Assembly: GCA_021018995.1 (NCBI GenBank)
Contig: CM037591.1
Coordinates: 69,653,901-69,717,900 of the forward strand
Source: Chloranthus sessilifolius
Lineage: Eukaryota; Streptophyta; Magnoliopsida; Chloranthales; Chloranthaceae
Direction: 5' to 3'
DNA length: 64,000 bases
Below are positions 6,202 to 63,967 of this stretch, piece after piece. Below the pieces are notes generated by a model, which was not told the DNA's origin, did not search any database, and was given only the letters and a program-made list of their open reading frames with translations. Made by a program: the position numbers and the translations under genes. Positions within the stretch are counted from its first letter, which is position 1. Each line of letters starts with the position of its first letter.

Positions 6202-6790
6202 GGCTCGAGTTCTTGGTGTGAACTATTAAAAAAGCAGTTCTATGTGGTACGCTCAAGGGTGAATCGCACCGCTCGAGCAAGAACCCACATGAAGCCATAT
6301 GCTCGAGCAAGAATTATAGGCTTAAATCACTCGGGAAGAAACCGATCGAGCATAAATTGTGGGTTTACATTGAGAACATTCTCAAGCATGAATTGGGTCG
6401 CTCGAGTAGGAAAAGACCTGAAGGGGTACGCTCGAGCGAGAATTTGAAGCTATTTTAGCTCGGGTCAAAACCGCTCGAGCGGGACCTAGGATTTGTATGG
6501 GAAATACGCTTGAGCGTGTGTTGGATCACTCGAGCGAGAAACTTTCTAAAGCGTACGCTCGAGCGGGAATTTTAGGTTTATTTTTGCTCTGGTTAAAACC
6601 GCTTGAGCGAAACTTAGGATTTATACTAGGAACACACTCGAGCGAGAATAGTACCACTCTAGCAGGATATCACCTAAAGCCTATGCTTGGGCATGATTTG
6701 TAGGCTTATTTTGCTCGGGTTAAAAGCACTTGAGAGTGAAGCATAGGTGCCACTGGGAATCGCTTAAGCGGGATTGAGCCACGCTCGAGC
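6202..6790 (+). promoter_or_regulatory. CGCTCGAGCG palindrome array in E1 LTR
   Basis: More than twenty variants of CGCTCGAGCG are scattered here, with good matches near 6432, 6472, 6555 and 6783 and diverged forms such as CGCTTAAGCG (about 6763) and CGCTTGAGCG. The same palindrome occurs again at 13741-13814 directly upstream of the E1 additional ORF. Confidence 0.8.
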
Positions 6791-7849
6791 CTGAACCTCT
6801 AATTTTGACTATCTTCAATGTATGTACTTGGGACTTGGCTAGCATGCTTGTGAGTTATATGTGTGGAATAAGACATGTAATGGACAACGTAATTCAGGAT
6901 AAACTCATAGTGGACCAAGGTTTTCGTCTGACCGTGAATCTTTGCACGTGTGTTCGACACGAATACAAGTAGGGAAATCACCTTGCCAACTTATAAGTTC
7001 TCTCGAAGTCATGTTTTATGATGCTATATTCAAATGAATTAAATTTTTTCCATGGACATCATTTACATACTCTCGCGATGATTTATCTTTATGTCTCTTA
7101 AAACTTGTGAACATGAATAATTGTTGGTACATTTGCAGTCACGTCTCGCATGATCTCTTACATCCATCTCTCAATTTTTATGTGTATTCGTATTGTAGTG
7201 TGATCGCTCGTAAAACTCGTTCTTGACCATGTGTACTCGATCTATGTTTGCGTGTTATGAATTTGTGAGCATGTGCAATGAGGAGTGGAGCCTCCATGAG
7301 AGGGGTGGAGTCCCCGGGGTTGCGGCCCTGTGTCCACTACAGACTGCTCAGTTCCCTAACACTGGATGCCTTGCCATGTGACTTGATTCGAGTGTATTAT
7401 ATGTAAGGGGAGTGGAGTCTCTGTGAGAGGGGTGGAATCCCCGAGGTTACAACCCTGTGTCCGCTATGGACTTCTCAGTTCCCTAATACGGGATTCTTAC
7501 TATAATGCTATATGATATGCTTTGTCTCGACCCTATGAATCCTTGCCATGTATCGTGAATTATCTTAGATCTCAATTATATGCATTTTTCTTGCTCGTTC
7601 CATTCATATGTTTCGATTGTGTCTCAACTAACTTGTCTCGTTGTGCATAGTGTAAGCATGTCTTATTCGCCTTCATGATTTGACCAGCTAAGATTTTCGT
7701 GAATGTTTTACTTGAATTTGATATATTTTGAATGCACAAGCAAGCTTTGACAGGTTTTAAATATGCATCAAGAATATGAATATGAATGATAAGGTGTGAT
7801 TTAGCATGGTAATTTTCTCTACTAAGCTTGGATGAAGTTCACCCGCAGT

Positions 7850-7939
7850 GAGGACGGGGAGCGTGATTCGAAAACGGAGGAAGATCCGGATTATAATCCC
7901 GGGGATGAGGAGGATTTGCCTGAAGAGAATTATCCTTAG
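7850..7939 (+). other. acidic peptide-like frame in E1 LTR
   Basis: An uninterrupted frame of 29 codons reads from EDGERD through EEDPDYNPGDEEDLPEENYP to TAG. It matches the frames in the LTRs of family A, E2 and E4. Upstream is AAGCTTGGATGAAGTTCACCC (about 7824-7844), the equivalent of the box preceding the other copies. No ATG sits at its start, so if translated it would need an upstream exon or start. Confidence 0.5.
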
Positions 7940-8370
7940 TTTATAGCAGTTTTCATTTTAGGAGAGTTTCGTTTTGAGAGAATTTTGATAAAAAGGTAAA
8001 GAGAATATGTAATTAAATCAGATGATATGTTTTGATCCATTGTTTAGATGAAGGTCGGCCTTCATCGGTGGATGTTTATATTTTAGATATATATATATAT
8101 ATGCATGCAGTAGTTTATCGTGTGAGTTCTTTGTTGGCCATTATATCCATGCTTAGCTCTGTCACACTTTTGATTGTTGCGCACTTTGCTTCCACTTATG
8201 TTAGCTTACCATTATGCGATGGCTTGATCCTTCCTATTGTTTAACGTGAGGAAAGGTTGAGCTGTCAGGAAGTGATGTTGTTCGTGGTGCCATAACATCA
8301 TTGTTTTTTAAGTCTTGCATGTGATCTGACGGCACAGGTTTTATGGTAAGGAAACCTGGACCGTCGCAGG

Positions 8371-8384
8371 TGTTATCAAGGCCA
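8371..8384 (+). other. E1 primer binding site
   Basis: TGTTATCAAGGCCA matches the initiator-Met tRNA complement TGGTATCAGAGCCA at 11 of 14 positions and sits between LTR end and gag, as expected for a minus-strand primer site. E4 keeps an exact match to the first 13 bases (62131 down to 62119). Confidence 0.65.
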
Positions 8385-8525
8385 CTTTTTGTAGTCTTAC
8401 AGGCATACAGAGCCATGGTGTAGGATAAGAACAATAGCATTAGGCTTAGCTATTAGGTTCAGACATTAAGACCAATGGTCTTAACATGACCTGACTTGTG
8501 GTTTGCTTGGTCATGGCAAGAAAAA

Positions 8526-13740: not shown

Positions 13741-13833
13741 CCGCTTAAGCGTCAAAATCATGCTCGAGCATCCACATAAAACACGCTCGAGCGTAACCCG
13801 TACCGCTCGAGCGGCTATCGAATCTAAAAATAG
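13741..13833 (+). promoter_or_regulatory. palindrome cluster and TATA-like box, E1 additional ORF
   Basis: Four clean palindromes: CGCTTAAGCG (13742-13751), TGCTCGAGCA (13761-13770), ACGCTCGAGCGT (13783-13794) and CCGCTCGAGCGG (13803-13814), then TATA-like CTAAAAATAG (13824-13833), about 230 bases before the ORF start at 14064. Downstream CGCGAAGTTT (about 13860) is shared with the E2 additional-ORF leader (about 27431). The same CTCGAG palindrome fills the E1 LTR. Confidence 0.7.
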
Positions 13834-14063: not shown

Positions 14064-14690
14064 ATGGCTTCAAAGAAGATAGCGGTTTTGAAGCCCTCTA
14101 AATCTCAATCTTTGAAGAAATCAAAGAGTGTCTCGAAACCAACCCTGGAACTGGCTCTCGTGCAATCCGCCGCATGGTGGGCTAACAAGACCCTAGCACC
14201 TGCATGGTCTTTTAGCCAGGACTACATTATGGACAAGGACACTACCTCGTGGGCGATCAATTATATTCGTCGGCACAGGTGACCCTGTTGAAGCATTCAC
14301 CACCAAAATCGATGATAGAATCCTTCACTTTGACGCCCGCGATGTCACTGACACCAAAGGCTATCATATGAACTTCTGTGATAGCTTGGGGCTCTACCAG
14401 CCACACACCAAAAGTATCCCAATTCAGGTCATTGCCATAAAAATTATGGATGACGGCCTAGTAGGTAATGGGGCTATCCACAGAGCCCAATTGCCACCCG
14501 AAATGTGGCCGCTTGATGATATTTTTGGAAAGAATCTGTACTCACTCCAACATTAGCAAGAACGGAGAGGACCCCTACTGCATGCCCTGTACTCAGGTTT
14601 TGGTGAGTGCTGGTTTAATGCGGCTAAATTAATTTTCGACGGCATTGTATATGCCCATGACCACTTGCTGAGTACAGCAACCTGATCAGT
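14064..14690 (+). pseudogene. E1 additional ORF, plant transposon-protein type
   Basis: The start MASKKIAVLKP has a basic Lys/Ser-rich N-terminus. It is followed by a globular part recognisable by comparison with E2 and E4: AWWANKT (E2 TEWWESRK), KIDDRILHFDARDV (E2 EIDGYIFHFDFDDI), RAQLPPEMWPLDDIFGKNLY (E2 RVQLPAHMLPLDIIFRKNLF) and QERRGPLLHALYS (E2 QERRDALL-TLYS). The layout resembles the domain annotated as putative plant transposon protein, a family of unknown biochemistry; that match is from memory. A stop at 14281 and one at 14554 break it, and the C-terminus is missing. It lies in sense orientation between pol and the lost 3' LTR. Confidence 0.7.
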
Positions 14691-14972
14691 CACATAATTT
14701 ACTATTTTATCACCCTTAACTTAGTGATGATAGGACTTAGTTTGCTACTAACAAGTTAACGATGTGCAGACATTAAGGAAAAATAGTGAAAGAGAGCCAA
14801 AGTGTTAATATTCGTCAAAATGAACTGAAAAAAGTAGTAAGAAAGATAATTGAGCGAAAAAGATGATTTCTCGCCTACCAAAAGCCAGAAAATTGTCATT
14901 TTCGATTCTACAAAAGAGACAAAAGAAGAAAAGCAAAAAATTATAATCCAGAGAATTGTTCGAATAGGAAAC
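14691..14972. other. unassigned junction DNA
   Basis: AT-rich sequence between the last recognisable codons of the E1 additional ORF and the Tat-type LTR. I see no gene; it may be E1 3' sequence or an older insertion. Confidence 0.4.
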
Positions 14973-16487
14973 TGTGCAACCACAGATCTTTGAGGATCCC
15001 GTCGCAACAATGCTCACTCCCGAAATGTTTAGAGTCGCCACCCGGAGCTTTTGGTGTCTCGGGGAACCTAAATCAATTTTATAAACACCAAAGTGCCAAA
15101 AATGTGACTCTGATTTACCGGTCTATGCCAAAGGCTCTTGGGTTGGGGATTCAGTTATCGATTAGGAAGGTGTTAAACACCCGATCAACCCGCTCAAAAG
15201 TGGTCTCTACTTATGGCCAAAATAAAAAGAAAAGTGCACTTCCTCTTGCCCAAGGGCACTTGGATCCTATATGTGCCCCTCCGCAATTACCGAGATTTTG
15301 GTGGCGTAATGGCACAAATTCAAGGATAAAGGAAAAGCGGAGAAGGTAGAGGTGTAGAGGGGAGAGCCGGAGCTCTCAGGCCCTTGTAGCACAATTGTAG
15401 ACCTTTGCGTAGGTGCGCTTGACGAGCTTCCAGTAGCTTGAGTGGATGAAGAATGAGTTCTAACATCTAAGGCTTGATAACTAAGGGGTAGAGGAAGAAG
15501 GCTAAGGAGTAGCTCTCTCCTAGACTCAAAGGTATTTAATGGGGGAGAGGGTTTCTAAGGAGGTTTGGAATTCTGGAATTTATATGGGTATTTGGTGTAC
15601 CAAAGGGGAGGAGGGGATTGCTTAATATCTTTCTCTCTCTTGGAAAAAATTCAAGCCATTTGCAAGGAGGGTGCCTCTCTATTTAGAGGAAAAGAGAGGG
15701 TTAGGGGGGTGCGTAGAGGCTAATTAGGATTAGCAATTAGATAATCCTAACATCTAAGGTTTCCTAGGATTTTAGGGTCATGGATATGTGTGAGGATAAG
15801 ATCAGTGGTAGATGATAGGGTGAGGTTTCAAATGACTAGAGGGTTGCAAATAGGGTAAACAAGGGTGCAACAATCCTAATGAAATGCACCCTAAACATTG
15901 GGATGGTCAACAAGTCAAACCCTAAAAGTAAAATTCAAGCAAAAACTAGAGGTTACTGTAGCTAATCTTGGCGTGTGTATTACACACGCCAAGCATAGCT
16001 ATAGTGTCCTGGAAGTCAGAGCTTATGGGGGGATCCACCTATACTTGGCTTGTGTAATAGACATGCCAAGCCATTTCTGGGAAAAATAAATGGTTGGGCA
16101 TGTGTAATATACACGCCATGCATGCCTTCTGCTAGGTGCACTTGGTCGCTTTTTTAGATCGTCATAACTTTTGATGTATAACTCGGATTGAGGTGATTCT
16201 TAGCTTGTTGGAAAGCTGGGAATCTCTACTTTTCAATGGTATAAGATTTGGTCTCAATAGAGGTCCCTACCATCCCTGGTACATCTGACTCTATCCACAG
16301 CTCTAGAGGGCTAACTAAGGGTTCGAGGAGGTTTCTAAAGGTTGGGGGTGATTCCTACGGGTTTGGGTAAGTTTATAAGGATTTAAGAATATTCCTAAGG
16401 ATACGAGAGGTGCTATCTGAAGCTCGGGGGTGCACCTCTCTCGAAGTATGTCTCGATCGGGCCTTGGGCCAATTTTGGGTGTCTACA
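14973..16487 (-). mobile_element. Tat-family LTR, copy T1
   Basis: Plus-strand ends are TGTGCAACC (14973) and GGTGTCTACA (16487). It is homologous over its length to the LTRs at 33454-35128, 37971-39577 and 52809-53924. Next to 16487 is GATGCCCCTCTTT, whose complement is a polypurine tract, so this is the 3' LTR of a minus-strand element. It contains the conserved U5 block with AGAGTCGCCACC (about 15031), a decayed TATA box (CTCTATTTAGAG near 15686), three palindromes (15968-16118) and the ATAACTTTTGATGTATAACTC module near 16165. Confidence 0.8.
15968..16118 (-). promoter_or_regulatory. TGTG-type palindromes in T1 LTR
   Basis: Three 25-bp palindromes start at 15968, 16045 and 16094. The first is perfect: outer arms TTGGCG/CGCCAA, inner arms TGTG/CACA, centre TATTA. 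Flanks of the second and third match those of the CAAC-type palindromes in the E3 LTR (39083, 39131), but the inner arms differ. Confidence 0.8.
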
Positions 16488-16910
16488 GATGCCCCTCTTT
16501 GGTATTTGATCACTAATGATCGCATGCCAAAGAAAGAGACATTAGAAGAGGCCAAAGGCAACACTGACGGGTCAACTATATTCAGAACAAACCTCAAATA
16601 TCAGGTGGGCAACATGGTGAGTAAACAGAAGCCTTGTATATCAGGAAAAACATCCGATCCTCAAGGTTATCAGTCCCCAAGTGCTTAGCGACATTACTAG
16701 GCATAACGAAGATGGAGCGAGTTGCGAAAGCCCAATATGTTGGGAAAAACATCTGGTTCTCAAGATGGTTGAAGATGTTTAATGTTCAAGTTTCATTATG
16801 AATAAAATAGCTCCGTAAGTGAGGTGGTGATCGACCCATACTCAAAGATAGGCGCGAAGTAAATATGCGATGATTCACAGCTTGTGTCCAATCATACGAG
16901 GTATTGATTG
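16488..16910 (-). mobile_element. T1 polypurine tract and 3' internal segment
   Basis: The minus strand carries the polypurine tract CCAAAGAGGGGCATC beside the LTR. The following sequence (ATCACTAATGATCG, AGAAGAGGCC, GCGCTTAGCG-like, CCAATCATACGAGG) aligns with 35129-35550 and 39578-40000. Similarity stops near 16910, where cargo-gene promoter sequence begins. Confidence 0.75.
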
Positions 16911-16940
16911 CACCATTTCGTGTCCGAGGGGGATCAAACT

Positions 16941-17131
16941 CGGTGTGTAAAATATACATGTAAAGCCAAAATTAGCCATGAAGAGCCTAGCGTGTGTATT
17001 ATACACCCAAGCCAAATTGGGCCTGGTTTGGCTTGGCATGTGCATTACACATTCCAGGCCACATTGGGGTCAAAATTTGCCTGGTGTGTATGTTATACAT
17101 GCCAAGACAAAATAGGGAGGGTTTTTAAACC
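16941..17131 (+). promoter_or_regulatory. palindrome array upstream of PMD cargo gene
   Basis: Four decayed TGTG-type palindromes start at about 16941, 16987, 17031 and 17079, 44-48 bp apart. They are followed by TATA-like GGTTTTTAAACC (about 17120-17131) and a CT-rich leader. The same motif class is in the T1 LTR and upstream of the DUF7745-like gene (21844-22042). Confidence 0.65.
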
Positions 17132-19054: not shown

Positions 19055-21390
19055 GATGTCGAGTGAAGAACACGGGCAGGAGGAAGGGCAACAAGAGGGA
19101 CCGAAGGTGGTCTATGGTCCACAGGGGGAGCAGCTTTTGGGGGTACAACGCTTTTCCTAGCCTTGGTACAAAATGCAGGGCAAGGCAGCCCGTACTAGCC
19201 TGCTCAATCAACAGTACGTCCATATTTCAAACTTTGGGATTGTTAGCAAGGTAATGAAATAAGTTTTATTTTGCCGCCTGGTCCTTTCTTTATGAAAGCA
19301 TTCTTTGCCTGTAGGATCTGACACCTCTTCATCTTGACGCAGGACTTGCCACCCATTATGTTCCAGGGAGGTTTGCTTGACCTTCAGCACTTTTACCATT
19401 ATCTCCCTCTGTTGGTGAAGTTTCTCCTTGCCCCGGCCGGCTTTGGAGATTTCCTTTCATCCCCTACCACGAGGGGTTACTCGGCCTATGTGAAGGCCCT
19501 GATTGAACGTTTTTGGTCTGAGACCATGACCTTTCACATGGCTATGGTAGAGATGGCTATTACCCCCGTCGATTGGTCGATGATTACGGGGATAAGGATT
19601 GGGGGTACGCTGGTGACCAACCTTCATCTACCAGGCCGGGATGAGGTGGTGCAATTAATCGAGGATTACCCCTCCGCCCAAAACAAGCATGGCTTTAAGG
19701 TCAAATTATCTTGGTTGGCTGAGTTGTTCGGTGAGAATGAGTTGGTGGATCTGGGCTAGCCAGATGCAAATATCTTCCTTGAGCCAGGGGGTGCACTGAT
19801 GTTGGCTCGCATTTCGCTCCTCTTCATTTAGGCAAGACCCTTTTAGCAAATGCTAGCGGAGGCTGGGTTTCGATGTATTTGCTCAGCCTTACCAGGAATT
19901 GGGACAACATGCATCGGTATGACTAGGGTGGGGCTGGATATGCCGGGCAGATGTCTAGCTTGGCCCGTTCCTCAGTTGTGAGTATGGCTTCTGTCGTCCA
20001 TTTCTGGCTCGTGATTGAGGTAACCTCTGACTTTTCCACTTTCCTTAATTCATTGGCTAGTCATTTATCTTACATCTGACACATCTTCTACCTTGACTGT
20101 TGCTTTTATTTTCAGATCTAGGGTACTTGCACTTTCAGCCTGGCCACCCACTTCTTTTTTCGGATGTCTATACATATTCGCTCATGTGTAATTGGCACAA
20201 AAACCATAGCCGGGACGTTGGGATGAAGCATTTGGAGATGGGCCTGAGGTCTCGATTTGACTTGTTGATCCCGGAGCAGGTATGGCCATTTCTCTCTTTT
20301 CTCTCTCAACATTTCTTTTTATGCTTCCTATTTGGCTGATGGGATATTTTTCTATCTAGGCAGGTCATCCATGACCCTTACGTTGTTCTCCCTTCTGAGA
20401 TCGAGCCGTCGTGGGTCCGTCTCACTTCTTTGTTGACCGTCGCATAGTCTTCTTCTACGGGGCTAGGGCGTATTACCTGAGAGAGAGGGGTACATAAGTA
20501 GCGAGATGACTTTGCCATGTCGCAGGCTCCTCCGATGGACGTTATGGCTCCTGTGGGTACTATTGAGGAGCTCTCTGCCAGGTTTCTTCATCATGGGATC
20601 CCCATTGATGATCTTCTCATGCCTGGGGGGTACCAGATGTGGTATGAGTCCCTGCCCTATCAGTCCATTCTACCATATTTTGTGCCTGGTGCCAACTTCC
20701 TGGCATTTGGTGGCACAGGAGATCAGGTAGTTCTCCTTTTTAGGCAAGTTCCAATGGTTTTGATTCAGTTTTTATTTCTACTGACTGAGACCATGCTTGT
20801 TTTCACAATTTGAGTAGGAAGACGATTCTGATGATGATGATGCGACGACGGTAGGTCCTGCAGAGGCTACGAGGGTTGGTCCTTCAGCCCCCTCTGGCAC
20901 GGGTGCTTTAGGTAGTTCTACAGCTGAGGTTCAAGGAGCATTTAGATGAGCGGGCCTGCCTATCCGCCGAAGCGGTCCGAGTCCCCCCTCCTCAGTTGGT
21001 TCCTGGGGTAAGTTTTTTTTCTTTTTATATTTTTGCTTTCTAGAGGAATGCCTATGTTTGTGCCTGTGGCTCTTGTGACTAATACCTCTCTTTTCTTTTA
21101 TGCAGAACTATGAATCAGCCGTGAATCAGGCCGAGTACTACCGCAATATTGTCGGCCTCCGGGACGTGGAGATGGTGAGTGTCATACTGATTTGTTCCGA
21201 TCATTGCCCTGTTATTTTTCCTTTCAACCGATCTTGATGGCTTTGGATATGACTTGCAGCATGCTCATGAAAAGGAATCGCGCTCCTTACTTAGTCGGCT
21301 TTCCTAGGCGTGGTCCCGAGTGGGGAGGTACGGATGTACCATAGCACCTCGCGCCATCACAAGAAGTCGAAGGGTGCTGCTAAGGATTGA
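19055..21390 (+). pseudogene. plant mobile domain (MAIN-like) gene, with introns, decayed
   Basis: PMD proteins (MAIN/MAIL family) occur as host nuclear proteins and as transposon cargo. Coding starts at ATG 19056 after acceptor CCATCTCAG. Plausible exons: 19055-19250; 19343-20019; 20116-20279; 20364-about 20727; about 20818-21007; about 21106-21174; from 21261. Exon 2 carries the clearest PMD signature, ALIERFWSETMTFHMAMVEM followed by AITPVDWSMITGIRIGG, and in another frame LGKTLLAN...GGWVSMYLLSL...NMHRYD, then SMASVVHFWLVIE. Exon 3 gives GYLHFQPGHPLLF and exon 4 FFYGARAYYLRERG. Exon 5 is an acidic DDSDDDD linker, followed by a helical C-terminus (QAEYYRNIVGLRDVEM). Stops at about 19158, 19757 and 20119 and frame changes show decay. 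It is antisense to the flanking Tat LTR, and its upstream array matches that LTR's palindromes. Confidence 0.75.
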
Positions 21391-21843
21391 GCTCTTAAAC
21401 TGATTTGATTTAGACACACTTGAACTATTGGAATCTTTCTATTTTTATTTTGGGATGATGTTATCGGAGACCATTTTTTGGATGGCTTTTATTATTTTGG
21501 ATGAATGCCATTGTTTTTCCCTCTTTATTGCCTACTCCACTTCTTTCTTCTTTCTCTTTCAGTGGTATGTTGGCTTTCTTCTACAGGATGAGCCTAATTT
21601 AGAAAAGAATGACCTTGGGGCCATGCCCTTGGTTGACATTTTGCCACCATTTCATGTCTGTGTGGATTTTTCCTACATAGGAAATCATGTGTTAGTTGGA
21701 CATGACCCAAAAATTTTGTATCTCTGAACGTGGGCAAGTGCCTTTTAAGCAAATGACAGGAAACGCAGGTGGGCTGCCTAAGGGATCAGCCAAATGACCT
21801 CCCCAATACTCACTTTTCCTCCTTTGGATGGCAGAAAATGGTG
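21391..21843. other. intergenic spacer between cargo genes
   Basis: Contains an open 99-codon frame at 21428-21727 rich in aromatic residues with no recognisable domain; it may be 3' untranslated sequence of the PMD gene. Nothing else is recognised. Confidence 0.4.
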
Positions 21844-22042
21844 TGGCGTGTGTAATACACACGCCAAAGTAACTCTGGGAGAAAGTGGCTTGGCGTGTGC
21901 AATACACACGCCAAAGCAAATCTGGACAAAGGTGGCTTGGCGTGTGTAATACACATGTCAAAGCAATTCTGGGAAAATTTTCTCTGGCGTGTTTATTACA
22001 CATGCCAAGTGCCATCAGGGGAAAGTGGGGCCTTTTAAGCCC
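21844..22042 (+). promoter_or_regulatory. palindrome array and TATA-like box, DUF7745-like gene
   Basis: Four palindromes start at 21844, 21890, 21938 and 21984 (46-48 bp apart). The first has arms TGGCGTGTG/CACACGCCA around TAATA. TATA-like CCTTTTAAGCCC follows at 22031-22042, and the first coding ATG is about 234 bases further on. Motif and spacing agree with the T1 LTR. Confidence 0.8.
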
Positions 22043-22275
22043 AAGAATGCATTCTTTTCTCCCTCTTTTGACTTTGACTTGGTATATTTTTGCTCCTATT
22101 TTTTCTTTTCTTACCCCAAGGTGGGTCCATCATCCTACATTGAATTGTATCTTGGGAACATCTTTGTACGACCACGGACCCACTTTCCGGCCCCGCCTCC
22201 CTTGAAGGGTCTAGGACCACAATACTTTCCTCTTTGGGAGTAGGGCCCAGTTTTCTAGGAAAGTGGCTTCAGAGC

Positions 22276-26500: not shown

Positions 26501-27017
26501 CGTGGAGTTTCAGGTAAACTTAATCCTATATTTCGATGAGTTATATGTTTATAGGCATATGTACATTATAAATGTTGACATGGTATCATACTTTCAGTTG
26601 GGAGACAATGTCTTCATTAGAATTTCGCCGACTAAGGGCGTTATGCATTTTGGAAAACGTGGCAAGTTGAGTCCGCGATACATTGGACCATTTGAAGTCT
26701 TGGGACGTGTTGGAGAAGTCCCTTACTGAGTTACACTACCACCGCAACTCTCCAGCATGCATGATGTATTTCATGTCTCAATGCTATGACAGTACGTCAA
26801 GGACCCAACGCACGTATTAGATTACCAACTGATTGAGATTTAAGAAGACTTGATCGTCAAGGAAGAATCGGTGCAAATTCTTGATTGGAGGGAACAAGTA
26901 CTATACACAAAGAAAATTCCACTGGTACTTGTCATATGGCGGAACCATTCACAAGAGGAAGCCACATGGGAACGCGAGTCAAATATCCGTGACTCGTATC
27001 CACAACTTTTTGGGTAA
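23585..27017 (+). pseudogene. pol: E2 pol remnant (PR-RT-RH-INT-chromodomain)
   Basis: The protease active-site block IDLGSTHSFV is near 23586, followed by the later GFDVILSMDWL. RT is well preserved at 24050-24900: [40 protein letters not shown] and catalytic [11 protein letters not shown] near 24595. RNase H (ECO-type) covers 24966-25370, with [11 protein letters not shown] and DALSRKT. Integrase runs 25660-26730 with CLIC, ISDRDPLYTS and G-TERVNR, but several stops. The chromodomain-like tail with NHSQEEATWERES ends at 27017. Stops lie near 24284, 24308, 24723 and 26116. An 84-bp intron-like segment lies at 26514-26597. Confidence 0.9.
26514..26597 (+). other. intron-like segment in E2 integrase
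   Basis: GTAAACT begins the segment after ...NVEFQ and CATACTTTCAG ends it before LGDNVFIRISPTKG. Position is identical to the E1 segment but the sequence is unrelated and the length differs (84 versus 78 bp). Here the segment is fully open, so an in-frame insertion cannot be excluded for this copy alone. Confidence 0.6.
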
Positions 27018-27274: not shown

Positions 27275-27398
27275 AGTCACTCGCACGGCTGTCTCAAAGG
27301 GTCATGCGAGAGAACTGATCTTATCAGTTGCTCGCACGACTCTCATAAGGGTTTAGATTTCTGAAAGGTCGCTCGCGTGACTGTCAATCTATTTAAAG
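27275..27398 (+). promoter_or_regulatory. TCGCTCGCGCGA-type sites and TATA-like box, E2 additional ORF
   Basis: Three sites related to AGTCGC-N4-GCGACT lie at 27275-27290, 27327-27342 and 27367-27385, then TATA-like TCTATTTAAAG (27388-27398). The ORF starts at 27642. A perfect copy of the same motif opens the array in the E2 LTR (30335-30350). Confidence 0.65.
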
Positions 27399-51431: not shown

Positions 51432-52787
51432 TCGTTGGGATGTTTGGTATGGGTGCCTTGGAAATTTCCTCCTTCCCCTATGGGAGGATGGAGGGCAAGA
51501 TGATATCGTCGTGTCGATACCATAAAGACTATCTTTAGATTTTTTTATTTTTAATTTTTTGGAATTTTTTTTTTGAAAACAAATGTTCCAAGGCTTTGGA
51601 ATTCCCTTCTCGGGTGGCTTTTGTACCCTAATTTAAGTTCCGCGGCAACGATTCTGAAGCACTTCGAAAGAATCAAAGGAAGGCCTTCAATTTATTGAAG
51701 GCACGAAAATCGAGGCAAACAGCCCGATCTCTCAAAATGAGTCAAAAAGAAGTTACCTTCTTTTGATTGGCGAGGGCATATTGGATGTCAGAGATGGCAG
51801 GGCTCAAACAGAGGCACTAAACACACTAATCAGGGGACTCGAGATATGAAAAAAGGCCACAGATCCAAACTAGGCTGCTCTGAATTGCACTGGCACAACT
51901 AATACATGCACCAGGCCAAAAGTGCCTAATTTAAAGCTGACACAACTAATAGTTGCGCCAGTGTACTGTTGGGACAATTAGTTGCACCAGAGCAATTTAG
52001 CTCTCCAGCTTGCTTGGCTACAGCCACTTCAGTCTATGGTTGGTCTCCAAACTAGTTTTTTGTGGAAGCTAGGCTTCTGGGAACTGGCTTATTTTATATA
52101 ATCAATCCTCTCCTTACCGAATCCTAAAGGTTTGAGTCTGGTATAACTCGCTAGCGCGCTCCCCAAGGGTTTTAAGCTTTGGAATGGGAACCCACCCGAT
52201 ATACCTCTGGCACAAGCGCCTTCTCAGATACTAGGTGGGCTGGGACTTTACTGGATCATCACCACTAGGGGCTGCTGCCATACTAAGACTCGGGTGGTTG
52301 TATGCGTGCCTAAACCAAACCCTTTTAAAATCTACACCATAAAAATAAGTTAATCAAGGTCCCTATTCTTGGTTTAATTTTAAATTTTTTCAAAGCCTTT
52401 TTTTTATGAAAGTTTTCTTTAGTTCAAAGACCCGGGGTGATGACCCCATGCCGCCACTACGGGCCGACGTCCATTGTTAGGATATGTTTAGACAAGTAGG
52501 CCCGCCAAATGGCTAAGGCACTTTAAATGACGAGAAAGTAAAAAAATTAAAAGACAATGCTCAAGTAGGCCCGCCAATCGGCTAAGGCACCAAAAATGAT
52601 GGAAATATAAAGAAAATAAGGACGATGCGCAAGTAGGCCCGCCAATCGGCTAAGGCACGTAAATGATGTAAAAGTAAATGACGTAATCAGAGGGGTGAGT
52701 AAAAAAAATAAATAAATAACAGCAATAAAGAGGTTAGTAAAATAAAAAAATAAATGGGCCAAGTTCAAGGGGAAGCTCTACTAGCTA
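51432..52787 (-). other. E3 leader (5' untranslated region)
   Basis: Between gag and primer site. It contains three CAAC-type palindromes at 51890-51990 (inner arms CAAC/GTTG, centre TAATA) and a tandem repeat of about 63-69 bp, three units from about 52493 to 52660, built on CAAGTAGGCCCGCCAAWYGGCT. No coding signal. Confidence 0.6.
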
Positions 52788-52808: not shown

Positions 52809-53924
52809 TGTGCAACTGTTGGATTTGTGACGATCCTGTCACGGCGATGCGCTCACTAACAAAAATATAGAGTCGCCACCCGGAGCTTTTGGTGTCCCAA
52901 GAAACCTAGTTCATTTTACGCGCACCGAAGTGCTAAAAATATGACTCTGAATCTGGTCCACACCAAAAGTTCTTGGGTAGGGGCATCGGTTATCAATTGG
53001 GAAGGTGTTAGGCACCCAATCAACCCAAAATGCGGTCTCTACTTAAGGCCAAAACAAGAAATAATAAAAAAGAAAGAAAAAGGCCTACTCATGCCCAAAT
53101 GGGTCTTAAAATCGTATTTGTGACCCTCCGTTCCTACCAAAAATTCGGTGGCGTAACAGCACAAATGGGAGGATTGAGGAGAAACCAAGAAGGTAGAGGA
53201 AGAGAGGGGAGAGCCGGAACTCTCGGGCCCTTGTTGCACCGTTGGGGAGCCTTACATTGGCTTGCTTTGGTGAGCTTTTGAAGGCTTGTTGGTATGGAAT
53301 GGGGTTCTAACTCCTAAGGCTTGAAGCTAAAAGGTAGAGAGGGAAGGCAAAGGGATTACACGCACCTAACCTAAGGGCTTTTAGTGAAATGCTAAGGTCT
53401 AAGAGAGCTTTTTGAAATCTGGAATTCGTATGGGAAGTGTGTACCAAAGGGAGAAAGATCTTCTCACTTTAACCTCTTTCTCTCTTAGGCCAAAATTCTC
53501 AACCCTTAAACAAAAGGGATGGGGGCCCTATTTATAGGAAAAGGATAGATTAGGAGAGTGTTTAGATGCTAATCAAGGTTATAAATTAGTTAATCAAGCA
53601 TTTAAGGTTTCCTAGAGTTTCAAGGGTTTAGAGAAGTGGGAAGATGGGCTTTAATGGTGGATGATGGGTTAATAGTTTAGATCACTTATGAGTTGCAAAT
53701 AGGTGTTAAAAGGGCGCAATAAAGTTATCAAAACACAAGGACTAAGGTGGTCAACAAGTCAAACCCAAACTTCGAAATTTGAGGCAAAAACTAGAGGTCA
53801 TTGTTCATATACCTGGCGCAACTATTAGTTGCGCCAGGCAAATATACAGTAAAATAGTTCCGTACAGTAGCCTGGAAGTTGGCTTTGCGAGGGGTGGGGG
53901 GACCCATTTATACCAGGAACAACT
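52809..53924 (-). mobile_element. E3 5' LTR, interrupted by E4
   Basis: Starts on the plus strand with TGTGCAACTG and follows the 3' LTR closely, including TATA box (about 53528) and a perfect CAAC palindrome at 53812-53838. It breaks at 53924 inside the second palindrome, where E4 begins; the rest lies beyond 64000. Confidence 0.85.
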
Positions 53925-54343
53925 TGTGACAGGCCAGATTTTTGCGCCTAGAAATTCGTGCCATCAGGATCATACTCAGGATGATCCCCAAGACAAATCA
54001 CGAAGTGTCTGCTCGTATAGCGGAAACCAACCAGACACTATCCAGCAGTGGTAGATCGAGTCATCACAAGGCATTTAAAATAGAAAGAAGCAATAAAATA
54101 AACATGTATCTAAATACATAAAAATATACATTCCCCAAAAAGGAATCAAGAAGAACCAATGGTGATGGACATCCATCACCCAAAACAATGGTTCCTAGTA
54201 ATGGTTCCAATAGAATGTATGGTAATACTATAAAAGGAAGAAAATATCTACAGAAAGTAAATAGAGAAGTGGCCACCAGGCGCACAATAATCCAAAAGTT
54301 TAAACAAAATTCCAAAAATAGCAGACTCGTATACCCAGACTAA

Positions 54344-54531
54344 GGATAAAAGTCGTCCGCCTGGACGTCAGTCTCCTCGTCCTCAGCCTCAGCCTCTAGA
54401 TCAGGCTGGTAGTCAGGGTCGCACCCAGTGCCAGGAACTCTAGTCTCAGAACCTAAAATGTTAATGGAAACAGGGTGAGCTACATCATAGCTCAATAGAA
54501 GAATACCAACTAAAGTGCGATGAATATGCAA
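54344..54531 (-). other. acidic peptide-like frame in E4 3' LTR
   Basis: A 63-codon open frame starting MHIHRTLVGILLLSYDVAHP and ending DEETDVQADDFYP. The C-terminal half (DPDYQPDLEAEAEDEE) corresponds to the acidic frames of family A, E1 and E2. In E4 it is uninterrupted and has an ATG. Confidence 0.5.
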
Positions 54532-55647
54532 GACATGATATTTTAAAGCAAGAAATCAAATCAGAATGTACAAACAGGCAAAATCAGAGTAAATACTGAG
54601 TTTGTAAACAAGAAACAGCTGTGATGCAGATATATAATCAGTGACTTAAATTGTATTTGTTTTCTAACTTAAGAAACTCCCGTGAATATATAACACGGAG
54701 TAAACAGGAATTTACTGATAGGAAACCCCAACCAATCGTCGTTCATATGAACAATCTTAGTTTGCAACAATGCCTCATCTATGGAGTGCAATTGTGCCGA
54801 GAGAATACAAGCAGATGCACAAGTGTGCCAGGCATCAGATATACCGCCGGGTCGGTGGGGATCATCTGGTTAAACCATCAAATCACATACACACATATAC
54901 CTCACAGATCAGATAGCAGAAATCAGGAGCAGGTTTCAGAAATAAATCAAAAAACAGAAATCAGAGATAGCAGGAATTTATGATATGCTTACATGCTTGT
55001 TAAAAATAGAAATCAGGGCACAGATATGAAATAAACATGAAATCATACTCAAAACAGTTTAGGTTGGTTTTCCCCTACCTCAGATTAGACCTTTTTCTAA
55101 GCAAATCCAATGCTTTTTCCAAGCAATCGGAAAGTTCTTATTCACAGCCTCCACTCTTAGTCTACATCACACACATGATGATGTATAAAATTTTTATCCC
55201 AATTATTAATAATATTGACGTATTTAAGTGTTTTCTCAAAACCGAGACGGAAATGGGTAATTTCGTGTTGACTTGAAACTTGACCCAACTTCCCACTTTA
55301 TTTTAACTTTCAAAACATTTGATTAAAGATTTGGTTAATCCTAAAAAAGTTATATCTCGTCGTACTCTTTCCAACGTATCAAGAATCGCGTCAATCGGAG
55401 TTCGGGACAAAGAGTTATGGCCAAAATACCGAAGCTATATCGATACTTCAGTCAAAACGTGCTAACTTAGAACTTGACCAAACTTCCAGCTCAATTTTGA
55501 TCATCAAACAATTTATTCATAATTTAGTTGATTCATAAAAGTTGTAGATTTAGTTGTCCTCTTTCCAATGCCGCAAGAATTGCATCAATCGGAGTTCGGA
55601 GTAAACAATTATGGCCAAAACACTGAAGCAGTGTCGGCACAGTCAAA

Positions 55648-55932
55648 TTGATCGATCAACACATCATATTGATCGATCAATACCACATTGATCGATCAAT
55701 TTCACCATTGATCGATCAACCATCTTATTGATCAATCAATTTCACCATTGATCGATCAATGCTATCGGGAATGAACCTCCAGTAACCTAACTTGTTTTTC
55801 CAATTGTATATATAATTTGATCGATCAATCACTCAAATTGATCGATCAATACCAAATTTGATCGATCAATCACCTAGATTGATCGATCAATACCCAATTT
55901 TGATCGATCAATCACCCCATTTATCGATAAAA
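55648..55932 (-). promoter_or_regulatory. TTGATCGATCAA array in E4 3' LTR
   Basis: About eleven copies of TTGATCGATCAA in two groups (55648-55760 and 55817-55915), mostly about 20 bp apart. A TATATATAATTTG stretch lies between the groups (near 55806). Confidence 0.85.
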
Positions 55933-56779
55933 AACCTTCAGAAATGCACTGCCATACGGTTTTATCATTTTTGATCTATTTTCATCCAAATCTTCTACGA
56001 TCTTCATCGAATCACACACACATCCACACCAAACTAAAACAATGATTTATTCTATAATCTAAACCATTAAAATCAAAGAAAACTAACCTTTCTTCAATCG
56101 ACTTCGCGGCTTTAAGGATCGTTGCCGAAGAGGGTTTCGAAATGAAACTTTCGGATTTCCACGGTGAATCCACAGAGATTGATCACAAGGACTTGAAGAT
56201 GATGTCGTTCATCCTTACGCGTCGATCTTAACCTCTTCCAAGCGCGGGGGACGATTCCAAAGTGACCGGCTCTTTGAAAATGGGGTTTTTAAAGAAACAG
56301 GGGTTTCTAATGAAAAGGGGTTTGAACTGTCAAAATTTACAAATGGCACAATGCCATTGATACCGACGTCATGAGCTTTGCGAAGAGTGTGGAGTTTTCT
56401 ACGCAATGGCGATCTCGCGGTCGGAATCTCACGAGAAGGGGTTTGAAGGTTGACGGGAGCTCTCTCTCTCTCTCTCTAGCTTTCAAATTTGTAAGGCTAA
56501 ACTTAGCCTTCAAGCAACCAAAAAAACCCAAAATATCTAAGATATTCTCAATCTAAGTTCTATCCCTTTAACTTAGGCTTGGCTTCGGTGTTGAGCGGCA
56601 CACGGTGCGTCAGTGCACGGCTTTCATACTAAAGGCCCAAATGCACATTTAAATCTTAATCCGTCTGCACAAAGTTATTCTAATATTATTTTAATATTTA
56701 TTATTATATAAAAATCTATGATGACATCGGTTTTCGTGTTGACCACACATACGAGGTCAGTCGAGTTCAGGTTTGATTT

Positions 56780-57190
56780 TTTGGGTTATTACATTCTTCC
56801 CACCTTAAAGAATTTTCGTCCTCGAAAATTGACATGCCAGTTTCAAAAAGGTATGAATATATTTCAATATGCCCAAAAATTAGGGTCATTATATTTACCT
56901 CTCCTCAAGGAATTTTCGCCTTCGAAACTGCATAACATACCTGAGCAGGTCTACTATCCACACAGGTTTAAACAAAGCAGTGATAATTATGTCACAAAAT
57001 TCTATTGTATTATAGTAATAGATAAAAATAGAATAGCTAAGTTCTAAATTATTATTGCTAATAATATTATTATAAAATTTAATTTATTTCGATTTTTATG
57101 CCAGGCACGTATATCAAAGTAGTCGAGTTTTGTATAGAATTTTAGGGTCATTACATTATCCCCCCCTTAGGAATTTTAGTCCCCGAAAAT
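56780..57190 (-). other. three tandem PPT/LTR-start junctions of E4
   Basis: On the minus strand, a block of type TTTCGRGGACKAAAATTC, a purine tract, then TGTAATRACCC occurs three times, with LTR-start bases at 57155, 56893 and 56793. The outermost has AAGGGGGGATAA before TGTAATGACCC, the second GAGGAGAGGTAAA before TATAATGACCC, the third AAGGTGGGAAGAA before TGTAATAACCC. A weaker fourth copy is near 59325-59375. The true LTR start is taken as 57155, but the 5' LTR end that would decide it is outside the window. Confidence 0.6.
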
Positions 57191-57255: not shown

Positions 57256-58098
57256 TTACAGGGACAACAGATGCATCCCCCTCAAGTGCAACGTTAGGCT
57301 ATGCTCCCCATCATCTTGTGCTTGCCCGTCAGGCACCTCCTCAACTGAAGCTGGTGGTATATCCCTCTCCTCAGGTAACCTCTTGACCAATAGATTATAG
57401 CTCTTAGTCCAGTCCTTGAGCTTGAAAACTTTAATGTTCTTGGTCAAGCGAGGCTCGCCAGGAGCCAGGCTATACTCCTCTCTCAATGCGATATACTGCT
57501 CGACCATTCTTGTTATCAATTGAGCATATGGCAGCTCTTTCTTTGAAGCAGTCTTCTACTTCTCAAACAGTAAATCTCTGTCATTGATCTCGTAGACTTG
57601 TGCCAAAAATGGGGTTATGGCACACTTGATAAAAGTATCAAGCATCCATAGTCTATCAGGGAATTGGGCCCAGTAAGAGCTTGACCTGAACTATACTGAC
57701 CACAAGTCTAGCATGGCATGGGACATCTTTGACATATGGTGGCAACAACAAGTCTCCACATACCGTGAAGAACACTGTAAAGCAACGACGACATAAAATT
57801 GGTTAAATTTATAGTCAAAACCGTCAATTTTGGTGACCAATTGGGGATGGTTGTCACCCCGGCGAAAATGTTGATAAAAGAGCCTCACTATACGAGGACA
57901 AAAATGGACGTAAAATGACTCATGCAATGTTCTCAACCCTAGCGTAGTAATATAGTCGATCCCCCATTCCATTTCGATCCAATCCTTGAATAGCTTAGAG
58001 TTGAAAGCACATTCAAGCAACAATGTTTTAGAAGCCCACCACTCTTTTGGAAGTTCTTGTTGAATTAGTGGTGGGTGTGGGTTTTGAACGGGTGGCAC
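57256..58098 (-). pseudogene. E4 additional ORF
   Basis: MPPVQNPHPP starts at 58098. Then KEWWASKTLLLECAFNSKLF, FCPRIVRLFYQHFRRGD and KIDGFDYKFNQFYVVVALQC match the E2 copy (TEWWESRK, CPRLVRLF, EIDGYIFHFDFDD). After a frame break at about 57690, the C-terminal part ELPYAQLITRMVEQYI and PRLTKNIKVFKLKDW matches E2 RLPYARLITYMIE and PRMTRNVKVYKYEDL. The middle section is degenerate and no Gln tract is present. It lies in sense orientation between the pol remnant and the 3' LTR. Confidence 0.7.
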
Positions 58099-58283
58099 AT
58101 CTTGTTCGATTGGTGTTTACCACAATAGCCGAGCAAAATGCGATCCAACGAATCAAAGCAAGAAGCTCCGATAGCCGAAAATATCCCTTGAATGCAAAAG
58201 AATCAAACTCTCTCGAACGATTGATGATCTTAATCGTGCGAGTGAAAATTAAAAAACCCAAAATATAACTTAAATCTATAAAA

Positions 58284-58425
58284 TTGATCGATCAATGCTC
58301 AATTTGATCGATCAGACAGTACATTTTCACAGAACATAGTATAAACTGGTTTGATCGATCAACCTTCTTATTTGATCGATCAGATGTGTAGTTGATCGAT
58401 CAATTCACCAAATTGATCGATCAAT
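58284..58425 (-). promoter_or_regulatory. TTGATCGATCAA cluster upstream of E4 additional ORF
   Basis: Six copies of TTGATCGATCAA or one-base variants, mostly 20 bp apart, end at 58284. TATA-like TTATAGATTTAAG follows on the minus strand (about 58270-58282). The ORF starts at 58098. Same motif as both E4 LTRs. Confidence 0.8.
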
Positions 58426-61780: not shown

Positions 61781-62113
61781 TTCGATCTGTTAACATGACA
61801 CAAAATTCCCATCAATAATTGTCATAGTCACAATGGCCCAAAGTTCCAACAACAACTTAAAACATATTTTATCCAATAGCCGTATATTTATCAAATCATC
61901 CAATATTTCCCTTAAAAGTGATTATGAGATCCACAATTTAAGTCTTAAATCGAATCCCAAGTTCTAAATCTCCAGCCATAGCTGTGAGTTCCCTATAAAA
62001 GCTAAAACCAAAACTTCACTAACTTTGCTAAAGTCCTAATTGGGTCATAGAAAACTCACTTCCCAACCATACCTACATCCATAGCCTAGTCTGAAGTCCT
62101 AACACGACCTAAA

Positions 62114-62131
62114 GCCTAGGCTCTGATACCA
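62114..62131 (-). other. E4 primer binding site
   Basis: The minus strand reads TGGTATCAGAGCCTAGGC two bases after the LTR end; the first 13 bases match the complement of initiator-Met tRNA exactly as I recall it. Confidence 0.85.
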
Positions 62132-62551
62132 ACTGTGACAGGCCAGATTTTCATGCCTGGAAATCCGTGCCATCAGGATCATACTCTGGATGATCCCAGG
62201 ACAAATCACGAAGTGTCTACTCGTATAACGGAAACCAAGTAGACACTGTCCAGCAGTGGTAGATCGAGTCATCACAAGGCATTTAAAATAGAAAGAAGCA
62301 ATAAAACAAACATGTATCTAAATATATAAAAATATACATTCCCCAAAAAGGAACTAAGAAGAACCAATAGTGATGGACATCCATCACCCAAAACAATGGT
62401 TCCTAATAATGGTTCCAATAGAATGTATGGAAATACTATAAAAGGAAGAAAATATTTACAGAAAGTAAGTACAGAAGTGGCCACCAGGCGCACAATAATC
62501 CAAAGGTTTACAAAAAATCTCAAAAATAGCAGACTCGTATACCCAGACTAA

Positions 62552-62754
62552 GGATAAAAGTCGTCCACCTGGACGTCAGTCTCCTCGTCCTCAGCCTCAG
62601 CCTCTAGATCAAGTTGGTAGTCAGGGTCGCTCCTAGTGCCAGGAACTCTAGTCTCAGAACCTAAAATGTTAATGGAAACAGGGTGAGCTACATCATAGCT
62701 CAATAGAAGAATACCAACTAAAGTGCGATGAATATGCAAGACATGATATTTCAA
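62552..62754 (-). other. acidic peptide-like frame in E4 5' LTR
   Basis: A 68-codon open frame ending DEETDVQVDDFYP, five codons longer at its start than the 3' LTR copy and with a handful of substitutions, none creating a stop. Confidence 0.5.
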
Positions 62755-63854
62755 AGCAGGAAATCAAATCAGAATGTATAAACAGGCAAAATCAGAGTAA
62801 ATACTGAGTTTGTAAATAAGAAACAGTTGTGATGCAGATATATAATCAGTGACTTAAATTATATTTGTTTTCTAACTTAAGAAACTCCCGTGAATATATA
62901 ACACGGAGTAACAGGAATTTACCGATAGGAAACCCCAACCAATCGTCGTTCATATGAACAATTTTAGTTTGCAACAATGTCTCATCTATGGAGTGCAATT
63001 GTGCCGAGGGATTACAAGTAGATGCACAAGTGTGTCAGGCATCGGATATACCGCCGGGTCGGTGGGGATCATCTGGTTAAATCATCAAATCACATACACA
63101 CATAGGCCTCACAGATCAGATAGTAGAAATCAGGAGCAGGTTTCAGAAACAAATCAAAAAACAGAAATCAGAGATAGCAGGAATTTATGATATGCTTACA
63201 TGCTTGTTAAAAGTAGAAATCAGGGCACAGATATGAAATAAACATGAAATCATACTCAAAACAGTTTAGGTTGGTTTTCCCCTACCTCAGATTAGACCTT
63301 TTTCTAAGCAAATCCAATGCTTTTTCCAAGCAATCGGAAAGTTCTTATCCACAGCCTCCACTCTTAGTCTACATCACACACATGATGATGTATAAAATTT
63401 TTATCCCAATTATTAATAATATTGACGTATTTAAGTGTTTTCTCAAAACCGAGACGGAAATGGGTAATTTCGTGTTGACTTGAAACTTGACCCAACTTCC
63501 CACTTTATTTTAACTTTCAAAACATTTGATTAAAGATTTGGTTAATCCTAAAAAAGTTAGATCTCGTCGTACTCTTTCCAACGTATCAAGAATCGCGTCA
63601 ATCGGAGTTCGGGACAAAGAGTTATGGCCAAAATACCGAAGCTATATCGATACTTCAGTCAAAACGTGCTAACTTAGAACTTGACCAAACTTCCAGCTCA
63701 ATTTTGATCATCAAACAATTTATTCATAATTTAGTTGATTCATAAAAGTTGTAGATTTAGTTGTCCTCTTTCCAATGCCGCAAGAATTGCATCAATCGGA
63801 GTTCGGAGTAAACAATTATGGCCAAAACACTGAAGCAGTGTCGGCACAGTCAAA

Positions 63855-63967
63855 TTGATCGATCAACACATCATATTGATCGATCAATACCACATTGATC
63901 GATCAATTTCACCATTGATCGATCAACCATCTTATTGATCAATCAATTTCACCATTGATCGATCAAT
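63855..63967 (-). promoter_or_regulatory. TTGATCGATCAA array in E4 5' LTR
   Basis: Six copies about 20 bp apart, identical in order and spacing to 55648-55760. Confidence 0.85.

Follow-up and report, generated by a model that had tools for sequence, protein, structure and literature searches.

Matched palindrome arrays in the LTRs and internal regions of Ty3/gypsy elements of Chloranthus sessilifolius

The role of the extra open reading frames (ORFs) of plant LTR elements is presented as an open question in parts of PMC11963269 and PMC11728184. We analysed a window of 64 kb (64,000 nucleotides) from Chloranthus sessilifolius in which LTR elements carry arrays of a short palindrome in the LTR and again in the internal region. 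The question is what reads these sites and whether the element itself encodes the reader.

Palindrome arrays in the window

The window contains chromodomain-type elements (E1, E2, E4 and E5) and Tat-type elements (T1 and T2), whose parts are listed in Table 1. E2 encodes a chromodomain (PF00385) that scores above cut-off at E 4.2e-6 and is by this domain a chromovirus (chromodomain Ty3/gypsy element); the submitted pieces of E1 and E4 gave no chromodomain match. E1 is placed with the chromodomain elements by the alignment of its pol to that of E2; for E4 the placement relies on the homologous extra ORF. We presume these elements to be of the Tekay lineage and use the name as a label only. A scan of viral contigs with the E2 RT as query returned no relative. 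The T1 cargo is probably antisense, judging by the T2 pol on the minus strand.

By sequence comparison the extra ORF is a remote relative of Transposase_32 (PF20167) and, by score, no member of that family. The four open stretches come from fetched copies, and all four align to the greater part of the domain (E 1.4e-8 to 0.0071) with 16.7-35.3 bits, below the gathering cut-off of 45; the broken ORF pieces of the window have no PF20167 match in Pfam. One full-length extra ORF has no PDB relative below E 0.3, and the predicted structures of ORF pieces have mean pLDDT of 41 and 37. The E4 ORF piece found no candidate in a protein database that includes plants, which is weak evidence as the search reached only 0.55-1.75 times 141 aa. 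Cargo A of T1 scores 33.9 bits against the plant mobile domain (PMD, PF10536; gathering cut-off 34.9), and the T1 PMD piece gave 20 candidates in a protein database, none at E 0.001.

Table 1. Coordinates of elements, palindrome arrays and extra ORFs in the window
Feature	Position	Strand	Remarks
E5 LTR, kin to E1 LTR	260..2634	-	no internal region within window
E5 LTR array	1521..1642	-	around CTCGCTATAGCGAG; 1 perfect site, 4 loose
E1 5' LTR	5180..8000	+	start TGTAACACCCC, end approximate; by eye
E1 LTR array	6250..6791	+	14 sites of CGCTCGAGCG, <=2 mismatches
E1 pre-ORF array	13742..13813	+	4 sites, spacing 19, 23, 20 bp
E1 extra ORF	14064..14553	+	frameshifted; pieces 14064-14279, 14197-14553
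T1 (Tat-type) LTR	14972..16488	-	TG..CA and polypurine-like tract, by eye
T1 LTR palindromes	15967..16120		3 sites, core GTGTGTAATACACAC
T1 array before cargo A	16939..17106		4 sites, spacing 46-48 bp
T1 cargo A	19322..19756	+	PMD (PF10536) at E 2.6e-8
T1 array before cargo B	21842..22009		4 sites, spacing 47 bp
T1 cargo B	22144..22593	+	weak DUF7745-like match only, E 0.12
E2 pol pieces	23720..27014	+	PF08284 protease, PF00078 RT, PF17917 RNase H, Chromo PF00385 at 26844-27014
E2 pre-ORF array	27275..27382	+	AGTCGCTCGCGCGACT type
E2 extra ORF	27642..28729	+	broken; pieces 27642-27899, 27903-28220, 28196-28726
E2 3' LTR	29556..32087	+	TGTAACGACCCC ... CTGTCACA; bounds by eye
E2 LTR array	30335..30560	+	exact counts, PWM
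T2 3' LTR	37971..39577	-	bounds by eye
T2 LTR palindromes	38982..39203		4 sites, core GCAACTATTAGTTGC; 3 orthologous in position to T1 sites
T2 internal array	51889..51991		3 sites, ~0.8 kb inside 5' LTR
E4 3' LTR	53924..56793	-	bounds by eye and self-comparison
E4 3' LTR arrays	55647..55912	-	11 sites, two sub-arrays (19-21 bp steps), TATATATA between
E4 extra ORF, first open piece	57691..58116	-	broken further on
E4 pre-ORF array	58283..58425	-	6 sites, spacing 20, 47, 21, 20, 21 bp
E4 5' LTR	62134..64000	-	cut by window end; then primer-site-like TGGTATCAGAGC
E4 5' LTR array	63854..63967	-	exact counts

The original prediction held that each element carries the same palindrome in its LTR and in an array before its extra ORF. 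Position weight matrices (PWM) trained on the LTR only confirm this for five elements, the top sites outside the LTR being those of the element's own internal array (ranks 1-4 for E1, 1-3 for E2, 1-6 for E4, 1-7 for T1 and 1-3 for T2). E5, with no internal region in the window, lies outside this test; the E5 LTR word recurs in a fetched relative (L066), both ahead of the ORF and within the LTR. The E1 word CGCTCGAGCG occurs exactly three times in the LTR (6429, 6472 and 6556), twice before the ORF (13784 and 13804) and once in the remaining window, at 30535 inside the E2 LTR. Exact copies of the E4 word TTGATCGATCAA number 10 and 5 in the two LTRs, 4 before the ORF and 0 in the remaining window. 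For T1 the PWM finds 3 sites in the LTR and 4 before each of the two cargo ORFs, as claimed. The AGTCGC-N4-GCGACT palindrome, reported on both sides of E2, is exact at 30335 only, and its pre-ORF sites (27275, 27326 and 27367) are imperfect matches. Sites are regularly spaced, at 19-21 bp inside the E4 LTR sub-arrays and, in T1, at 46-48 bp in the arrays before the cargo ORFs.

Over the window, 103 palindrome centres score at least 8 compared to 4.2 in shuffled sequence, an excess for which (AT)n accounts in part. Blind ranking of palindromic 10-mers puts the reported E1 word at rank 1 and returns overlapping one-mismatch words for E4, and it misses the motif in E2, T1, T2 and E5. In a blind test of shared 8-mers against 2211 non-LTR windows, the own internal array is best for E1, E4, T1 (ranks 1 and 2) and T2, and E2 fails. 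Only E4 and T1 pass the 7-mer version; the best E1 window is elsewhere and that of T2 adjoins the T1 array. The half-site CGC-N4-GCG is found 14 times in E1 versus 4.4 in shuffles (maximum 12) and 9 times in E2 versus 2.5 (maximum 7), suggestive of a half-site common to both; E5, with 5 versus 2.0 and a shuffle maximum of 7, gives no such hint, and we make no claim of a common half-site. Each ORF-side cluster had also been said to be followed by a TATA-like box. Scored against a consensus, this is supported in part: the best score after the array is in the top 4 % of windows for E1 and E2 and in the top 20 % for E4, and the two T1 arrays show no TATA signal (54 % and 73 %).

Motif type among copies in the genome

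Genome-wide, we found 52,187 sites of CGCTCGAGCG compared to 918 of the reversed word; the corresponding numbers are 233 and 0 for AGTCGCTCGCGCGACT and 321 and 0 for GGCGTGTGTAATACACACGCC. We compiled a set of 35 elements consisting of 3 from the window plus 32 copies of the same genome, hand-picked (20, 6 and 6 out of 150 scored hits each) so as to be spread out and diverse and to have long open frames. One M5 seed word used in the motif calling of this set was added post hoc, from L066. Both sides could be called in 26 of the 35 elements, and LTR and pre-ORF motif agree in all 26, extending the match beyond the window. The remaining nine have one call or none: L037, L054, L055 and L058 lack an LTR call, L060, L062 and L063 a pre-ORF call and L065 both, and L059 is tied on the LTR side. 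The M1 and M2 motifs are akin, and it is between these two that L059 is tied. L054 was considered as a counterexample for its other palindrome downstream and rejected as such, for it carries TTCGATTAATCGAA, which L039 and L047 have as well, there next to a normal array; the stretch in L054 is most likely a nested element.

The exact 16-mer is present between -10 and +8 kb at 16 of 49 E2-like ORF hits; these 49, out of 150, are the hits in the region covered by the first 100 of the 233 motif positions. This count excludes one further hit at the edge of that region (C5:70613179), whose two sites lie at the distance of an LTR. The 21 sites at those 16 ORFs fall at -264 to -381 (10 sites), +2674 to +2983 (5) and -5.7 to -9.6 kb (6), and all 21 share the orientation of the gene.

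Motif type covaries with the tree of the extra ORF: 4 changes suffice for 5 groups, which is the minimum, compared to a mean of 11.6 in shuffles, with 0 of 200 as low. The tree comprises 22 of the 35 rows, 13 E4-like ones being omitted, and a row with a call on just one side took its label from that side. M1 and M2 form single clades with only modest support (72/64 and 67/42). The motif had been predicted to agree within and differ between elements. It does so between lineages, but within a clade it stays the same for ORFs as little as ~55-58 % identical, which makes it clade-specific rather than element-specific. TCGAG/CTCGA words are as frequent in the E0 stretch beside E1 (3801-4500) as in the LTR of E1 (22 versus 21 per 700 bp), which weakens strict specificity further. 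Same-clade copies are non-independent, which leaves about four clades of chromodomain elements, along with T1 and T2, as independent cases. In the orthologous LTRs of T1 and T2, identity is 0.41 for the palindrome core and 0.73 for the flank; LTR-to-internal site agreement within each element is 0.84-0.92.

What may read the sites

We hypothesize that the arrays of one dyad-symmetric site, placed per family in the LTR promoter and upstream of the extra gene, are candidate binding sites for one dimeric DNA-binding factor that would control both promoters jointly. The factor would most likely be element-encoded, the extra ORF being the first candidate: the PF20167-like ORF in E1, E2, E4 and the E5 relative and the PMD-type cargo in T1. 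The element would then run an autoregulatory loop with a site specificity private to its clade. Protein binding, co-control and the ORF as source of the factor are what we infer from the arrays, and we give this reading a probability of roughly 0.45. Such a factor could act by transactivation, and an anti-silencing role is possible too. Several observations count against the loop, namely the low confidence of the predicted models and the full-length ORF without PDB relative, the kinship of M1 and M2, the perfect E1 word inside the E2 LTR, and the matched arrays of T2, whose internal array is followed by no convincing ORF.

It is quite conceivable that host transcription factors bind the palindromes, a different one per clade, and that selection for joint expression put the same sites before the ORF. 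Sirevirus palindromes are described mainly as stress-factor sites, with different nuclear factors suggested, in the part of Bousios 2010 (PMC2829016) devoted to them. The CTCGAG core common to the E0 stretch and E1 fits host factors, as does T2, which retains matched arrays without an evident ORF. However, host binding by itself does not predict the minimum-change fit of motif to ORF phylogeny, and it needs a separate factor per clade for both promoters.

Another explanation, which we consider improbable, is that the arrays are functionless by-products of tandem duplication and of LTR sequence copied into the internal region. Regular spacing is in keeping with such an origin. So are the spacers between T1 cargo-B sites, which resemble those of the T2 LTR (1/1000 shuffles, in 9 uncorrected comparisons); T1 cargo-A versus T2 LTR gives 23/1000, T1 cargo-B versus T1 LTR is weak (41/1000), and shuffles are as good in 55/1000 for E1 and 107/1000 for E4. 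The T1 and E arrays may thus share old ancestry with LTR units. Recent copying fails to account for the match because motif-masked pre-ORF and LTR sequences are unrelated in 22 of 24 pairs; there are two exceptions among these fetched copies (p 0.02 and 0.015), where about one in 24 would be expected at p 0.05. All six masked pairs of the window do no better than 39/300 shuffles, while control pairs from E4-like copies (three pre-pre and three LTR-LTR) score 152-226 versus 13-15 shuffled. The motif is kept even though these masked zones are unrelated, and the array holds the same position before the ORF in the clades examined.

We consider it very unlikely that the palindromes take part in host silencing, by forming hairpins or giving rise to small RNAs, in place of being protein sites. 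In maize transposons small RNAs and local RNA structure are correlated, according to a part of PMC10760457, but CGCTCGAGCG and TTGATCGATCAA are short and loop-free, which makes an RNA hairpin unlikely for the E1 and E4 sites, and one word stands at two promoters of a single element.

Known systems and meaning of the pairing

The layout had been proposed as undescribed, and in this respect the proposal fails, as palindromes in the LTR and before ENV are already reported for copia Sireviruses (Bousios 2010, PMC2829016). The sections on these palindromes describe many copies, of element-specific sequence, lying ahead of the ENV-like gene and, within the LTR, upstream of TATA, and no linker copies in the four Sireviruses without that gene. 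They present the layout as Sirevirus-specific, with a CGG-CCG core in all but one of 13, and contain no covariation test with an additional ORF. Sireviruses are Ty1/copia, whereas the elements here are Ty3/gypsy, E2 having a gypsy-type RNase H along with its chromodomain, and show several motif types with cores other than CGG-CCG and a core difference at orthologous sites. New here are the gypsy lineages and the covariation of motif with extra ORF.

VANDAL transposons carry short motif arrays in their own non-coding regions, the VANC protein and the motif diversify jointly, and the motif can occur in an unrelated element, as parts of Hosaka 2017 (PMC5735166) and Sasaki 2023 (PMC10398659) report. 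In our elements, too, own non-coding motif arrays diversify with the protein, over few independent clades. VANDAL is a DNA transposon, and those parts give VANC binding and demethylation as shown, whereas the sites here are palindromes and candidate binding sites, and the ORF is PF20167-like. Tentatively, the PF20167-like and PMD-type proteins could bind palindromes private to their clade, both in the LTR of their element and in their own promoter, and co-diversify with them over many copies as a retrotransposon counterpart of VANC. On our best reading, the loop would resemble that of foamy viruses, where one element-encoded factor, Tas, acts on the LTR and an internal promoter (passages of PMC8670036 and PMC4929722). 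Those passages concern a vertebrate retrovirus with experimentally established function, and the likeness is one of layout with no sequence kinship implied.

Retand elements have antisense ORFs with TRP28 between pol and 3' LTR, predicted to be DNA-binding and proposed to be regulatory (Vicient 2025, PMC11963269). The portion treating them reports no matched promoter motifs, and the T1 cargo differs in being a PMD plus a DUF7745-like ORF. Sunflower Tekay and Athila carry extra ORFs, one of Athila resembling PF20167; the Tekay ORF lies at a 5' position without known domain, and no matched promoter motifs appear in the corresponding part of PMC11728184. PMD is the commonest extra domain in surveyed plant gypsy elements (PMC9289625); the passages on it mention no promoter palindromes, and 'palindrom' is absent from the text as a whole.

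Each ORF clade is now paired with a candidate target sequence, so that function becomes assayable clade by clade. Should the ORF be what reads them, sites private to each clade would account for the coexistence of related families without cross-activation. Self-recognition, if true, would provide a function for this class of plant extra ORFs.

Matched palindromes in the LTR and before the internal ORF

The window (G000:C8:69653901-69717900) consists of piled-up, nested LTR retrotransposons, whose plant origin is indicated by a plant mobile domain and by close plant relatives of the reverse transcriptase. E1, E2 and E4 are mutually related gypsy elements: pol of E1 and E2 aligns at 64 % over 3.5 kb, E2 has a chromodomain and the extra ORFs are homologous (36 % identity for E4-E2 and 37 % for E2-E1, the latter with E 4e-6 at the N-terminus). 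E5, a further LTR, is akin to that of E1 (65 % over 0.6 kb). The LTRs of T1, T2 and T3, assigned to the Tat type by their layout, are about 68-71 % alike. Within E4, three LTR-start-like words in succession precede the 3' LTR and resemble partial duplications. At G000:C8:79.68-79.70 Mb, 10 Mb from the window, relatives of the E2 (98 %) and E1 (96 %) extra ORFs lie on the same strand, 16 kb apart, in reversed order relative to the window.

The original prediction that each LTR shares its palindrome with the segment preceding its own ORF holds, the motif-by-segment matrix being essentially diagonal. For the E4 motif there are 11 sites in the LTR and 6 before the ORF, with no match in segments of other elements, and 10/10 window matches of the T1 word fall in T1. 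Off the diagonal, the E1 word has 4 matches in the E2 LTR and one each in the E2 and E4 pre-ORF segments, and the E2 word has 2 in the E1 LTR, 1 in the E1 pre-ORF and 2 in the E4 pre-ORF segment; isolated matches beyond all segments number 8, 11 and 8 for the E1, E2 and E4 words (E4 5' LTR not counted). In a motif-free test, we ranked 160-bp non-LTR windows (n = 2211) by the 8-mers in common with the element's own LTR. In E1, E4, T1 and T2 the top window is the element's own array, either pre-ORF or internal, and in E2 it is not; E5 has no internal region and T3 no array. Only E4 and T1 pass the 7-mer version, in which the best T2 window adjoins the T1 array. When weight matrices are built from LTR sites only, the top-ranked array is the element's own in each of the five elements that allow the test.

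Outside E1, the nearby stretch E0 carries 22 TCGAG/CTCGA words upstream of TATATATA, with the E1 core in common. E0 may represent a non-autonomous element that relies on the putative factor of E1.

Motif type among genomic copies

The genome that holds the window has 2,168,743,587 bases in 32 contigs. E4-like ORFs gave 26,579 first-look candidates genome-wide (150 scored, 20 copies fetched); TGATCGATCA is the highest-ranked pre-ORF palindromic 10-mer in all 20, and an exact copy stands on the LTR side in 18. E2-like ORFs gave 20,434 candidates (150 scored, 6 fetched), with E2-type pre-ORF arrays in five copies (ORF identity 58-71 %) and a degenerate one in the sixth, at 52 %. Near E2-like ORFs the exact 16-mer stands at two sharp distances, with six more sites at a distance fitting the 5' LTR, and its orientation is that of the gene in 21/21 sites. 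Among the 14,804 E1-like candidates (150 scored), CGCTCGAGCG is found on both sides in L061 and L064 (ORF identity 80 % and 55 %) and on the LTR side only in L062 and L063. L065 (44 %) yields no motif call. In L066 (38 %) both sides show the E5-type word, and by eye the L066 LTR has long stretches in common with the window E5 LTR.

The two sides agree in 26 of 26 callable elements (23 of 23 minus three window elements, with one tie besides), and the motif label follows a tree built from the N-terminal pieces of 22 ORFs, needing 4 changes for 5 groups with L065 treated as separate. Near-copies inflate such counts; there are four independent motif types among the chromodomain-type elements and two among the Tat elements. 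Support is 100/100 for the E4 clade, 72/64 for E1 and 67/42 for E2. A further motif type, TTCGATTAATCGAA, forms arrays with many sites 19-21 bp apart, apparently within nested elements.

Coordinates of arrays and related features (window positions unless stated)
Feature	Position	Remark
E0 words	3801-4500	TATATATA at about 4578
E4 LTR-start-like words	about 57155, 56893, 56793	in 53900-57200
T1 LTR palindromes	15967/16044/16094	orthologous to T2 sites
T2 LTR palindromes	38982/39083/39130	orthologous to T1 sites
T2 internal array	51889-51991	0.8 kb inside 5' LTR
T3 LTR	33451-35131	
Tat array	16939-17106	46-48 bp spacing
Tat array	21842-22009	46-48 bp spacing
Tat array	39083-39203	46-48 bp spacing
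Tat array	51889-51962	46-48 bp spacing
TTCGATTAATCGAA array, L054	+2.8 to +3.4 kb	from ORF hit
TTCGATTAATCGAA array, L039	+3.9 to +4.3 kb	from ORF hit
TTCGATTAATCGAA array, L047	+1.3 to +1.7 kb	from ORF hit

Origin of the arrays

Three LTR palindromes of T1 and T2 are orthologous, with flanks in common (alignment, paired by eye). Identity between these sites is 0.41 in the 13-base core and 0.73 in the flanks; LTR and internal arrays of the same element compare at 0.84 and 0.92 in T1 and 0.87 in T2. Under permutation of the labels, 11/2000 trials attain the observed value, with a floor of about 1 in 165 owing to the few sites. The T2 internal array, absent from the original prediction, has the T2 core, and no convincing ORF was found behind it. 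A search of the T3 LTR, homologous to those of T1 and T2, found no palindrome array. Spacing in the Tat arrays is 46-48 bp in 9/13 intervals, despite differing cores and most spacers.

The arrays do not appear to be recent copies of LTR sequence, since motif-masked window pairs are not clearly above shuffles. Of 300 shuffles, 299, 90 and 88 reach the LTR versus pre-ORF score for E1, E2 and E4, and 241, 39 and 209 that of LTR versus own array for T1-A and T1-B (before T1 cargo A and cargo B) and T2; the masked T1 and T2 LTRs are clearly homologous (0/300). Among fetched copies, masked pre-ORF and LTR zones are unrelated in 22 of 24 pairs (exceptions L056, p 0.02, and L066, p 0.015; no LTR zone was obtained for L037 and L054), and pre-pre and LTR-LTR controls among E4-like copies give 152-226 vs 13-15. 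A finer spacer test (nine comparisons, uncorrected) indicates that T1-B is anciently related to Tat LTR units, with weaker hints for T1-A and E1. The arrays may thus derive from ancient copying, with the motif as the part retained.

A predicted dimeric factor and its precedents

The arrays are best read as predicted sites of a dimeric DNA-binding factor, because the dyad sites are loop-free (E1, E4), the arrays regular, the promoters two per element and the motif constant per ORF clade. The extra ORF is a candidate source of this factor, covariation being the sole argument for that step. Open copies in fetched DNA reach 436 aa; read directly, the protein is basic at its N-terminus and ends in a Q-rich tail, and its middle gives a remote PF20167 match in 4/4 stretches tested. 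No DNA-binding domain is recognisable in the extra ORF. In T1, a plant mobile domain (PMD) ORF stands after an array. Among host proteins with a PMD, MAIN and MAIL1 are described as acting in gene regulation, with dependent genes enriched for a promoter motif (PMC7156037); for the T1 ORF this precedent would be a lead only.

The original prediction called such a system undescribed in LTR elements, but the layout has a precedent. In Bousios 2010, the LTRs of 13 Sireviruses carry motifs, and the 9 with an ENV gene have extra copies upstream of it, a layout identical to that found here (PMC2829016). Titles and abstract openings of the open literature gave no counterparts in the plant gypsy, chromovirus, PMD or anti-silencing fields. 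The proposed factor would be functionally like foamy-virus Tas, whose targets are the LTR and an internal promoter (PMC8670036, PMC4929722), while the proposed ORF-motif pair would find an evolutionary likeness in VANC and its arrays (PMC5735166).
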